Notes under the pieces: generated by a model
Database searches by the model: none
What the model saw: the letters and a program-made list of their open reading frames with translations, nothing else
What the model was told of the DNA's origin: nothing
Assembly (NCBI GenBank): GCA_023634235.1
Contig: JAMKCF010000013.1
Location: 9,151,827-9,215,826, forward strand
DNA length: 64,000 nt
Origin: Pisaster brevispinus
Taxonomy: Eukaryota > Echinodermata > Asteroidea > Forcipulatida > Asteriidae
Direction of reading: 5' to 3'
Made by a program: the position numbers and the translations under genes
In this document: positions 54,544 to 63,143 of the stretch, in pieces
Layout of the letters: each line of letters begins with the position of its first letter
How positions within the stretch are numbered: the first letter of the stretch is position 1

Positions 54544-54618
54544 TTAGTTATCATCGAGCTCTGGACGAATCTCTTGAAAATTCACGGCCTCTGGTCTGGA
54601 CGACAGTCGTATGTGTTT
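54544..54618 (-). CDS. Receptor kinase terminal exon
   Basis: Encodes KHIRLSSRPEAVNFQEIRPE LDDN and TAA (54544-54546) after acceptor CCCTCTCTTCAG, in phase with the preceding exon. A short acidic C-terminal tail with no tyrosine. Confidence 0.78.
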   Translation of the reverse strand, partial: KHIRLSSRPEAVNFQEIRPELDDN

Positions 54619-60600: not shown

Positions 60601-63143
60601 GGAATTTTAAACCGACGACCTTCTTATTAACGTGCCGTTGTGGCAGGAGAATCTGTCCTCCGGAGATACCCCCCCCCCCCCCATACGGCAAACTGTGTAT
60701 ATGACTTCTTCTGATAGCGCCCTCTTTTGAATCATCCTCCTTCAGGCCATGTTAATTTCCCATATGGGGGACAGAATCGCCGGGGGAAAGATTTCCCTAT
60801 GACACCGGCGCTATACCAACTGAGCTATCTATAAGCTTTACATTAGCAGTCTCCCTATTTTGTCAATATCTTTGTTCGGGGTGCCAGCCAGAACCCATCC
60901 AACCTGTAACTGCCGTATATACAGGGATCACACCTAAGTTTAAAATACAGCCTGGTTCGTAAAAACAACGCCAATTCTGACCAGGTTTTTGGAGTCTGGA
61001 GAGTTAACAGTTTTATAATCACCTTATTCGTAGCAAGATGCTGCATTCCTCTGGCCACATCGAGAGCAAATTTAAGCAGCGTTTCAGAAAACGGTAAAGT
61101 TCCTGTGACTGTTGAGCGCGATTTTCTCAGGTGAGATCGGAGGTTACCGTATGGCATGAACTCCAAAGCTACGCACAATTCATCTGTTTAGAGATTGGGA
61201 AGAATACAAACATGTTTTCAAGTACTACAATCCACCTCGCAAGTCACTGTAATTCACTTAACAAGGGTGTTTCTTTGTTTTGCTGTCGTGTCGAGACTAA
61301 GCAGATAAAACAATGTACTCAAGCTCCGGTGTTTCTGATCAGCAGAGTGTGGGTTCGAGTCCCGACCGTGACACTTGTGTCCTTGGGCAAGACACTTTAC
61401 CATAATTGCTTTTTCTCTTTGAATGTTACATTATTAAGTGTACTAGGATTGGTACTGCACATAAAAGAACCCAGAACACTTATCGTGGAAAATAGGGGTT
61501 AACCACGGTATTTCTGGTTCACATATCATGCAACCTTGTTTACAGGTTTCCCTCAGCCTTGCGAGCTGCATTGATTAAGTTCACATATTTATGAGGCATC
61601 CTTGGCTTCATTACAGGCTGTGTTTGGCAGATACTGAATGTGGAATACCTGTAGATACACTACAAAATAAATTAAAGGTTGAATTAAAAGTGTTGATGAC
61701 AATCAAGCGACTGGGTACTCTTTTAGATTCCTTGTGTACCTGGCTGGTTCCACCAACGTTTAACTGGATGTGATTACACTGGTTGTGATCTTTCTGTGAC
61801 ACTAAAACAGACCAAGTAAGGGCTTAGGAAAAAATGTGTTTTTACACATTCATAACTCGAAGGACCCTGTGTAGAATATTCCGCAACCGTATAATTGAAA
61901 AAAGTGCGTCCGTGACATTCTGACCCCAAACCTTTTTGGCCTGCTCAGATTTTTTTTATCAGCACACTGAGGTGTCGGCATAATGTTTTATCAAAATTGA
62001 TCCGTGCATTTTTTTGACACGGGTTAATATTGACTCTTCAAAATTGACCGGGTTTTTCTCGCATTGATCGTCACTCACCATCATGTAAGCAGACTCCCAG
62101 GATGTTGACCAAGTTGGGATGATTGCCAATCCGAGTTGTGGACTCAAATGCCGTCATGAATTTACCTCTCTCTTCTGCTGACGCACTTGCTGTAGTAAAA
62201 CCAAACCATGATCAATGAAAGCAAACAATATGTTGTACTCGGAACACGTAACCTAAACCAACAACTTGTGGCTGCATGCGGAATTATTTGAAAGACTATT
62301 GGTGGCGCACTGTGTTTTGAACCAAATTGGCACCTACGTTGCTACAACACTCTTATCCTGATGATGTTCACATGAGCAGGCAGACTTCTTAATCACTCTA
62401 CGAGCTTCATTCAAGCAGTTAAAAATAATTACGCCCTTTAAATCCCTTTACATGTTTTAAAACATAGAGCAAGGACAGAGATTCCCTTGATCTATGCTTC
62501 GGGTCATAGATTGGTGTTTGTCTGGGTAATGGTGATTTATAGGCAAAAGTCTAAATAAAGATGCAATAAAAGACACGTGGAAGGTTTGCTGAGAAAACAG
62601 CAAAATCTCCTCACTCACACGTCGAATCCACGTTTATCCAGGTGACAGCAGGTACCAACTGCATCTCTGGCTGAAGCATTTGCAAAAGGACACCAACCTT
62701 CAGAAATCTTAGAAACGACTAATGCATGAATCGTTTATCAGATTCTAATGTCTTTGGGTGAAAAATTATCCAAATATTTTAAAGGGAATCTTTCTCAAAA
62801 TAGTTTATACCATCCCCAGCTGCAGTGCTTCTCACAAAGTAAGAAGGTTTTACTCGGAAAGCTTAGTAAAGTTTGCTCGTTGTTTACCTTTGAGTGTGCT
62901 GATAGTAGCTTCATAAACTGTCCCATTTTTTGTCACAGATCCATCAGTCACTTCCCCAAAGTGTCCCATTGAAAGGATATTGGTACCAAAGCGCATACTT
63001 TCCCTGTTAATGTGATGGCACGTAGCCCAAGAGGGTATGCCGTTGACAAAATTTTCATATTGGGTGCGGTCGTCCTCGTGGGCAAGGATCGGTGAAGGGA
63101 CGAACTGAGATGGTTGACGCATCCCCGTGTTAGCAACCGTAGT
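54544..63143 (-). CDS. Receptor tyrosine kinase, cytoplasmic part; probable pseudokinase (5' end off window)
   Basis: Nine exons on the minus strand, all with GT-AG sites and matching phases: 63143-62888, 62189-62079, 61183-61023, 60420-60307, 58560-58490, 57766-57726, 56234-56138, 55553-55457, 54618-54544. They give 340 residues. Order: juxtamembrane segment, P-loop (LSMGHFGEV), beta3, alphaC, hinge (LCVALEFMPYGNL), catalytic loop (IVHQDLAARN), SDFGLSR, RWKPLEAL, TDLWSFGVLLWEIVTLG, GYRLPKP, MQRCWHVNPQERPSF, and a 24-residue tail ending EIRPELDDN. LAARN and the WSFGVLLWE..TLG block mark a receptor-type tyrosine kinase. Key residues differ: first P-loop Gly is Ser, beta3 Lys is Ser, alphaC Glu is Ala, HRD is HQD, and APE is PLE. 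DFG and the catalytic-loop Asp and Asn remain. The subfamily is not assignable without the ectodomain, which lies beyond 64000. Confidence 0.92.
55457..55553 (-). CDS. Receptor kinase exon: RCWHVNPQERPSF
   Basis: Encodes YEQMQRCWHVNPQERPSFRK and LVEILSFMCTES. The acceptor is CTCGTTGAAG. The donor GTGAGT follows GAAAGT in phase 0. Reading past it gives only an unrelated hydrophobic tail. Confidence 0.9.
55720..55985. mobile_element. Dispersed element related to 23750-24060
   Basis: TTCAAAGGTGTGTGCGTTTT, TCTGAGAAGCGTTTCATC, TTTGAAGGGAAGTGTTTCTC, AAAATTTTATACATTATCAA and CAGCTGCAGTGCT parallel 62565-62845. It lies in a kinase intron. Confidence 0.5.
56138..56234 (-). CDS. Receptor kinase exon: GYRLPKPSYCSPE
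   Basis: Encodes ATPYSAIPTNMLASKLKSGY and RLPKPSYCSPE, the segment G.PY......L..GYR...P..C...(L/I)Y of RTKs. Acceptor CCATATAAG, donor GAAAT|GTAAGA. Confidence 0.9.
56615..56791. mobile_element. MITE with CAGTGGCGTAAC ends
   Basis: CAGTGGCGTAACCAGTGGGC at the left and TAGTAACGCCACTG at the right, with G-rich and C-rich tracts facing each other inside. The CAGTGGCGTA terminus is common in invertebrate MITEs. Kinase intron. Confidence 0.8.
57278..57710. mobile_element. Gggtca-family element interrupted by a second element
   Basis: Starts ACACTATAAAAACTCCCGGG and ends CCCGGATCCGTTTTAAGAGA. The interior shares GGGGCTTGACTCACTTCCGG with 50500-50725. Positions 57442-57652 are an insertion (next entry). 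Confidence 0.7.
57442..57652. mobile_element. Nested element with CAAAAACGGGGGTGCTAAAATT ends
   Basis: Left AAAAACGGGGGTGCTAAAAT then TGACACCA; right TGGTGTCAATTTTACCCCCC then CCGTTTTTGCAG. Internal inverted words ATAACACCATAGAGTGTTAA and GTGTTATTTTGACACTCTAG. It is the same family as the ends of 59424-60054. Confidence 0.8.
57726..57766 (-). CDS. Receptor kinase exon: WSFGVLLWEIVTL (41 nt)
   Basis: A 13-codon exon bounded by TTTGCTTTAG and CTCTCG|GTAAGC. It encodes the highly conserved alphaF motif. A transposable element ends 15 bp beyond the donor boundary. Confidence 0.92.
58195..58365. mobile_element. Gggtca-family element, partial
   Basis: TTGACCCGGATCTGGGAACC, TTTTCTGGGCCAGTATGACC, AAATTGACACAGGATCCAAG and TTCTGGGTCAACTTGACCCA match 50500-50725. 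Confidence 0.6.
58490..58560 (-). CDS. Receptor kinase exon: RWKPLEAL
   Basis: Encodes KRVSFRWKPLEALNTGRHSS KTD, where canonical RTKs have P(V/I)(R/K)WMAPEAL. Acceptor TAGTTTCAG, donor GACTT|GTAAGT. Confidence 0.9.
58750..58965 (+). mobile_element. Dispersed element related to 23750-24060
   Basis: GGTTGGTACCCGCTGTCACC, TCGCTGAACGTTGATGGATT, CGACGTTCTTGATGAAAATA and CAGCAAGTAGGCTC match the right half of 23750-24060. Confidence 0.6.
59424..60054. mobile_element. Long element of the GGGGTGCTAAAATT family carrying a hairpin
   Basis: Left end CACTGCAAAAACTGGGGTGC followed by TAAAATTTACACCATGGGTGT; right end CATCGTGTCAACTTTAACAC followed by CCCAAAGTTTGCTGTG. It contains the perfect-stem hairpin 59495-59663 and a 26-bp perfect palindrome at 59793-59818. 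Confidence 0.65.
59495..59663. mobile_element. Near-perfect hairpin with about 82-bp stem
   Basis: CAAATATTGACTGCTTTTAC at 59495 is the exact complement of GTAAAAGCAGTCAATATTTG ending 59663. The stem continues through TAGCACGAG, GTTAAAAC, CTCCCTCGGTGATCCCCGGA and CGTTC to a short loop near 59579. Confidence 0.9.
60307..60420 (-). CDS. Receptor kinase exon: catalytic loop (HQD) and DFG
   Basis: Encodes IVHQDLAARNILLDADLVAK and ISDFGLSRVENTYLETTT. The CAA codon for Gln replaces the HRD Arg. One activation-loop Tyr remains. Donor ACAACG|GTAAAT. Confidence 0.95.
60655..60790. mobile_element. Inverted-repeat element with CCCCC tract
   Basis: GAATCTGTCCTCCGGAGATA and a run of 16 C at the left face CCATATGGGGGACAGAATCG and CCGGGGG at the right. 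GACACCGGCGCTATACCAAC just after resembles a tRNA-like remnant. Confidence 0.5.
61023..61183 (-). CDS. Receptor kinase exon: hinge and alphaD/E
   Basis: Encodes DELCVALEFMPYGNLRSHLR, a short basic insert, and LLKFALDVARGMQHLATNK, a typical RTK alphaE. Acceptor CTCTAAACAG, donor AATAAG|GTGATT. Confidence 0.92.
61305..61520 (+). mobile_element. SINE family B, best copy
   Basis: TCCGGTGTTTCTGATCAGCA then box B GGTTCGAGTCC (61352-61362), CACTTGTGTCCTTGGGCAAG, ACACTTTACCATAATTGC and GGTTAACCACGGTATTTCTG. Kinase intron. The open frame through it is fortuitous. Confidence 0.72.
62079..62189 (-). CDS. Receptor kinase exon: alphaC helix and HPN..NLLG
   Basis: Encodes GKFMTAFESTTRIGNHPNLV and NILGVCLHD. 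Ala99 aligns with the alphaC Glu, 17 residues after Ser82 and 10 before the His of HPN. Donor ATGATG|GTGAGT. Confidence 0.9.
62565..62845 (-). mobile_element. Dispersed element related to 23750-24060, inverted
   Basis: TTTGCTGAGAAAACAGCAAA, GTCGAATCCACGTTTATCCA, GGTGACAGCAGGTACCAACT, AAATCTTAGAAACGACTAAT and ATAGTTTATACCATCCCCAG. It matches 41075-41345. Confidence 0.65.
62888..63143 (-). CDS. Receptor kinase exon: juxtamembrane, P-loop, beta3
   Basis: Acceptor CTCACTAAACAG, donor CAAAG|GTAAAC. Encodes PSWATCHHINRESMRFGTNI (the usual WE..R..L.FG.. lead-in), LSMGHFGEV and YEATISTLK. In canonical kinases the last would read VAVK.LK; Ser stands at the Lys position. Confidence 0.9.

Follow-up and report, generated by a model that had tools for sequence, protein, structure and literature searches.

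The 64,000-nucleotide stretch analysed here, which we call the window, comes from the sea star Pisaster brevispinus and corresponds to C13:9151827-9215826 (C13 being contig JAMKCF010000013.1) in a genome assembly of 549.7 Mb and 512 contigs. Its minus strand carries part of a gene that, judged by sequence comparison and a structure model of its orthologue, is a Tie-like receptor with a Tie2-like ligand-binding head and no membrane-proximal stalk. The kinase domain is very probably a pseudokinase. We infer that the protein is a pseudokinase under constraint and that it would dampen active Tie-like paralogues, as a co-receptor or decoy, a reading to which we assign a probability of roughly 0.55.

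Independent re-derivation of the gene gave a stop-free product of 340 residues from nine minus-strand exons (window 54544-63143) with compatible phases and exclusively GT-AG introns, in agreement with the open frame and intact splicing described in an initial annotation of this DNA. The kinase fold reported there was recovered by Pfam as a match to PF07714 (PK_Tyr_Ser-Thr; residues 56-309, E 2e-76), with a 376-residue version of the model as query that is the same as the 340-residue product up to residue 316. Exon A (62888..63143; acceptor ...ctaaacag, donor gtaaac) encodes the end of the juxtamembrane segment with Tyr-Glu-Asn-Phe, the P-loop LSMGHFGEV and strand beta3 with EATIS. Exon B (62079..62189) runs from the alphaC helix FMTAFEST to HPNLVNILGVC, exon C (61023..61183) from the hinge to alphaE, and exon D (60307..60420) contains the catalytic loop IVHQDLAARN, with DFG and the activation-loop Tyr kept. 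They are followed by exon E (58490..58560; KRVSFRWKPLEAL, the APE position, Glu kept), exon F (57726..57766; alphaF, WSFGVLLWEIVTLG), exon G (56138..56234; alphaF-alphaG) and exon H (55457..55553; RCWHVNPQERPSFRKL). Exon I (54544..54618) encodes the C-terminal tail KHIRLSSRPEAVNFQEIRPELDDN and the stop, and has lost the tail tyrosines of the family; it was set by the family C-terminus, which reads I.PE.DDN in most relatives and EIRPELDDN in this product. Ahead of exon E lies a tandem acceptor, AAATAG followed by TTTCAG (window 58561-58572), the first site of which would add Phe-Gln, as in the Asterias amurensis model. Intron D-E contains a long near-perfect inverted repeat (window about 59498-59660, by eye), possibly a foldback element, and exon A is closely preceded, in the direction of the gene, by an ATCA-type tetranucleotide microsatellite (window about 63203-63310).

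The kinase sequence was compared in two alignments, one of 229 relatives plus the window gene (230 rows) and one of 44 sea-star relatives chosen by species name. The orthologue, P0121 of A. amurensis, is labelled 'uncharacterized protein' and has 737 residues; from end to end it is 69% identical to the full-length receptor (512/744 columns). Five active-site residues are altered alike in both species. The first Gly of the P-loop is replaced by Ser58 (codon TCA, 62970..62972; Gly in 41/44 sea-star relatives), the C-spine Ala of VAIK by Thr80 (ACT, 62904..62906; Ala in 44/44), the beta3 Lys by Ser82 (AGC, 62898..62900; Lys in 44/44), the alphaC Glu by Ala99 (GCA, 62149..62151; Glu in 43/44) and the HRD Arg by Gln180, giving HQD (CAA, 60409..60411; Arg in 44/44), all codons lying on the minus strand. 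In the larger alignment the beta3 Lys is kept in 222/230 rows; Ser takes its place in the window gene and P0121 and nowhere else, one row has Arg and five have a gap; the alphaC Glu and the HRD Arg are each present in 225/230.

Ser58, Ser82, Ala99 and Gln180 are therefore placed as the initial annotation had claimed, its spacing of 17 between Ser and Ala is free of gaps across the alignments, and the substitutions recur in another sea star, where it had proposed to look for them. The C-spine change was absent from its list. It had also counted the reading PLE at the APE position as a lesion; the letters are right, but the Glu is kept in 230/230 rows and relatives read LSLE, LAIE or LSPE, so PLE is not a degeneration. 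An alternative ion pair of Lys85 and Glu101 was considered and rejected, Glu101 being Gly in P0121 and Arg or Lys in 35/44 sea-star relatives.

We took the loss of at least one of the beta3 Lys, the HRD Asp and the DFG Asp as the mark of a pseudokinase, and Ser82 is such a loss. Papers are cited here by PMC number, from excerpts of their text. According to a review, catalysis absolutely needs the beta3 Lys or another Lys that occupies its position, and nucleotide binding often does not (PMC4718504); on this basis we rate catalysis very unlikely, and nucleotide may still be bound. An unconventional active kinase, with a moved lysine as in WNK kinases or with weak activity through an intact Asp, Asn and DFG, would fit the retention in both orthologues of the HRD Asp (Asp181), Asn186, DFG, Val65, the activation-loop Tyr and the APE-position Glu. 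The second P-loop Gly, Asp237 and Arg299 are likewise retained in both. In WNK kinases the substitute Lys sits in the glycine loop; the glycine loops here, LSMGHFGEV in the window gene and LSIGNFGEV in P0121, contain no Lys. Lys85 has no conserved Glu partner, given the Gly of P0121 at position 101, and the five replacements are the same in two species, which makes this alternative highly improbable. The pseudokinase assignment of the initial annotation thus has the support of the sequence, also in an orthologue that bears signs of purifying selection.

Upstream exons were sought in the 40 kb beyond the high end of the window, and seven were found on the minus strand: a signal exon (C13:9223440-9223347), Ig1 (C13:9222628-9222308), Ig2 (C13:9221036-9220764), EGF1 (C13:9219927-9219793), EGF2 (C13:9219330-9219181), EGF3 (C13:9218745-9218644) and a membrane-helix exon (C13:9216463-9216351). 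Together with the nine window exons they encode a stop-free receptor of 736 residues in the order signal, Ig1, Ig2, EGF1-3, membrane helix, kinase domain and tail, with 16 exons and 15 GT-AG introns in a span of about 17 kb. The initial annotation therefore covered only the intracellular half, and the ectodomain that it had expected in the flanking DNA is Ig1-Ig2-EGF1-3 with a membrane helix. A Foldseek search with a model of the P0121 ectodomain ranked 2gy5, the ligand-binding domain of Tie2, and 4k0v at the top (2gy5, E 3.6e-20). Residues 32-352 of P0121 are 45% identical to the Tie-2-like receptor P0131 of Asterias rubens, and the ectodomain of the window gene shares 33-51% identity, over unequal spans, with the five vertebrate Tie rows listed. 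The orthologue model and the sequence identities both point to an Ig1-Ig2-EGF1-3 ligand-binding head of the Tie type. The FGFR/Eph frame of the initial annotation gives way to a Tie-like family, Tie1 and Tie2 being angiopoietin receptors of blood vessels.

The stalk was assessed on 78 proteins that match the window-gene ectodomain, of which 18 were preselected and 16, P0121 among them, reach EGF3. The gap between EGF3 and the membrane helix measures about 9 residues in P0121, versus 201-463 in the 15 other relatives, vertebrate Tie receptors included. The intron that separates the EGF3 exon from the membrane-helix exon is 2180 bp long, and tblastn with 20 family proteins found no FN3, HYR or Ig exon in it (best E 0.34). 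The Ig3 and FN3 stalk of Tie receptors is missing in both species.

A comparison of the two orthologues indicates that the catalytic losses are not part of a general decay. The kinase domain is 82.5% identical (212/257) and the ectodomain 64.9% (207/319), a difference that gives the kinase domain a constrained look. Within the ectodomain, EGF1-3 reach 80.3% (102/127) and Ig1-Ig2 54.7% (105/192); the juxtamembrane segment (54.2%, 32/59) and the tail (58.6%, 17/29) are the least conserved intracellular parts, and exons A-D (residues 37-214) are identical at 142/177 positions (80%). Among the 132 columns conserved to at least 90% in the 44 sea-star relatives, the window gene departs at 29 and P0121 at 30; at 26 of them both carry one shared residue, changes that most simply arose before the two species split. 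Differences between the orthologues fall in 5/132 conserved versus 49/119 variable columns (Fisher p 7.5e-14). In the tree the two form a clade with support 100/100, on a stem of 0.93 and with tips of 0.11 and 0.22, nested in a sea-star Tie-like group of 23 rows (support 99/99). The long stem and short tips are what a burst of change with later constraint would leave.

The long stem would also fit a recent loss in a dispensable tandem duplicate on its way to a pseudogene, and an open frame by itself is weak evidence to the contrary: in a neutral simulation 12% of the runs were still stop-free at 12% protein change, and 20% at 9%. We consider this course of events very unlikely, because the state is identical in two species, all 16 exons are open, the kinase domain is better conserved than the ectodomain, and the differences between the orthologues gather in columns that vary in the family. 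The gene has neither stops nor frameshifts, its splice sites are unbroken, and we saw no relaxation of constraint. The kinase fold is kept and looks constrained, and the view of the initial annotation that this is not a decayed pseudogene is supported.

We propose the following mechanism for a constrained co-receptor or decoy. The receptor would be unable to transfer phosphate, while its head would still share the ligands of the active Tie-like receptors next to it. By associating with these, the dead receptor would lower or reshape their output as a decoy or dominant-negative co-receptor, as Tie1 modifies Tie2, and its conserved pseudokinase fold would serve as a protein-binding or allosteric surface, not as a phosphotyrosine scaffold. 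In Tie2 the membrane-proximal Fn3 region is described as forming a ligand-independent dimer needed for activation, and angiopoietin binds the ligand-binding domain (PMC8560823). A binding head without stalk or catalysis matches what would be expected of a membrane-bound decoy. The nearest precedent is Tie1, a heterodimer partner of Tie2 that alters the response of the latter (PMC8145142). The retention of the head, the loss of the stalk and the 80.3% identity of EGF1-3 would also fit a pure ligand sink, in which only the ectodomain has a function and the kinase domain is carried along. No other part of the protein is as well conserved as the kinase domain (82.5%, against 54.7% for Ig1-Ig2), which renders this improbable and suggests a use for the fold; the simplest would be to offer an active partner a surface to bind.

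The initial annotation had proposed a 'scaffold or decoy co-receptor', and of the two the decoy is plausible. In an ErbB3-like scaffold the dead domain would be trans-phosphorylated by an active Tie-like partner and recruit adaptors. The activation-loop Tyr, kept in both orthologues, would be in line with such a role, as would the single juxtamembrane Tyr that each of them has in a YxN context (YENF in the window gene, YTNV in P0121), which we take to be a Grb2-type pattern. However, the tail docking tyrosines that an ErbB3-type scaffold keeps are not retained: at the tail tyrosine column, Tyr is present in 43/43 ungapped sea-star relatives, His in the window gene and Phe in P0121. The IYMRLL-type Tyr is gone in both, the tail of the window gene is without any Tyr, and that of P0121 keeps one (FYEI). 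In the juxtamembrane segment three long relatives have more tyrosines (at least three in P0125, at least four in P0127 and at least two in P0131), and this segment and the tail are the parts of the intracellular region that have diverged most. Since the docking tyrosines are largely lost, the phosphotyrosine scaffold is weakened, and we regard it as unlikely.

Several observations weigh against a catalytically dead Tie-like decoy. The remaining juxtamembrane YxN and the activation-loop Tyr make some scaffold role possible. With Asp181, Asn186 and DFG kept, binding of ATP and Mg, or residual activity, may be compatible with the sequence. In principle the Ala-to-Thr change at the C-spine narrows the adenine pocket; in KSR1, Ala-to-Val at the C-spine left ATP unblocked and Ala-to-Phe blocked it (PMC12721161), and by analogy with the former Thr may not block ATP. 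In the ectodomain of P0121, Pfam returned only sub-threshold EGF matches, and at E 0.01 Ig_Tie2_1 was not matched at all; three relatives show sub-threshold matches to it. Finally, other paralogues in the genome are more constrained than the pseudokinase. Of 21 further kinase loci of P. brevispinus, 20 gave a best match in Asterias, at 38-92% identity over spans of unequal length and not necessarily to an orthologue, and L046 gave none; some paralogues thus reach up to 92%, against the 80% of the orthologue pair over exons A-D.

Relatives of the receptor are spread along the same contig. The upstream tandem neighbour on the same strand (C13:9231748-9250081, its exons treated as one gene) has Lys, Glu, HRD and DFG intact; one of its exons matches residues 480-524 of P0137 (E 3.4e-4) and is FN3-like by eye. 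Tie-like exons recur on C13, for example near 2.2-2.4, 8.7, 9.23-9.31, 10.0-10.8 and 17.0 Mb, and the window gene is apparently single-copy, with no other site above 63% identity to its exons among the candidates scored. The catalytic loop was read at the 21 other loci, that is, 20 plus the neighbour, L046 among them not being Tie-like in look. HRD is present in 20/21 and replaced by HRY in L041 (C13); DFG is altered to DLG in L045 (C13) and to GYG in L047 (C3). In Patiria miniata, P0157 (HRK and GFG, 25/132 conserved columns changed) and P0154 (HRA and DCG, 13/132) come next in divergence at these columns after the window gene and P0121, and their kinase losses appear to be independent. Catalytic losses thus look repeated in the sea-star Tie-like family, with gene-model errors and pseudogenes as possible causes of some of these readings. 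We speculate that sea-star Tie receptors might be a large, clustered and diversifying recognition family, its kinases joined to EGF, FN3, HYR, SRCR or Ig ectodomains, with repeated kinase-dead inhibitory members that would counter activating ones, like paired immune receptors. In it the window gene, with its head directly on the membrane, would be the most fully specialised inhibitory member among those examined; we think this quite unlikely.

Elsewhere in the window, a single-exon fucosyltransferase-like open reading frame lies on the plus strand at 48385-49656; its relatives bear PF00852, its best named match is 56% (P0231 of A. rubens, encoded on a contig whose length, 17,180,802, equals that of one with A. 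rubens Tie-like genes) and another match is 73%. The minus strand has an open frame of 1087 residues at 29500-32760, low-complexity by eye. At 24346-24735 lies a tandem repeat whose unit, in one of the frames, is of the 'YPTDRT' type.

Receptor pseudokinases are already known as a kind. Among the matches listed from the open-licence literature, mostly titles and the starts of abstracts, there was no Tie-family pseudokinase, no Tie-like one from an echinoderm and nothing on the window gene. A receptor that has kept its ligand head and kinase fold and lost its stalk and active site amounts to a natural separation-of-function experiment, in which a kinase domain has been strongly conserved although its sequence predicts no catalysis. 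Such a receptor would tell whether a dead partner can tune Tie signalling, a question of interest for Tie1, whose role next to Tie2 is still debated.

One of the closest known systems is the sea-star Tie-1-like or angiopoietin-1-receptor-like family. It falls in the same 23-row group, has the same head where members have one, ends in most members with the I.PE.DDN-type C-terminus found in the window gene, and includes relatives along C13. These relatives keep the beta3 Lys and the HRD Arg (44/44) and a stalk of 201-463 residues (15 non-orthologous relatives measured, vertebrate Tie receptors among them), whereas the window receptor is without them. Human EphB6 has an Eph ectodomain. Like the window gene, it is a receptor pseudokinase without the beta3 Lys and alphaC Glu (PMC8347583). 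Its Gly-rich loop is intact, but the catalytic Asp, the Asn and the activation-loop residues, all three kept in the window gene, are absent from EphB6. ErbB3, which acts via its phosphotyrosine tail, is likewise described as a kinase-impaired receptor among active paralogues, and differs in that the docking tyrosines are mostly gone from the window receptor. The initial annotation had also likened the gene to ROR receptors, a parallel that falls away because ROR1/2 keep all catalytic residues but one glycine (PMC4718504). A Tie-2-like receptor is on record in the coelomocyte proteome of A. rubens (PMC13409769), and for the sea urchin both the coelomocytes and the axial organ are reported to have SpTie1/2 (PMC12113024). 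From Tie1 and Tie2 the window receptor differs by the absence of the Ig3/FN3 stalk, by its lost kinase active site and by its lost tail tyrosines.

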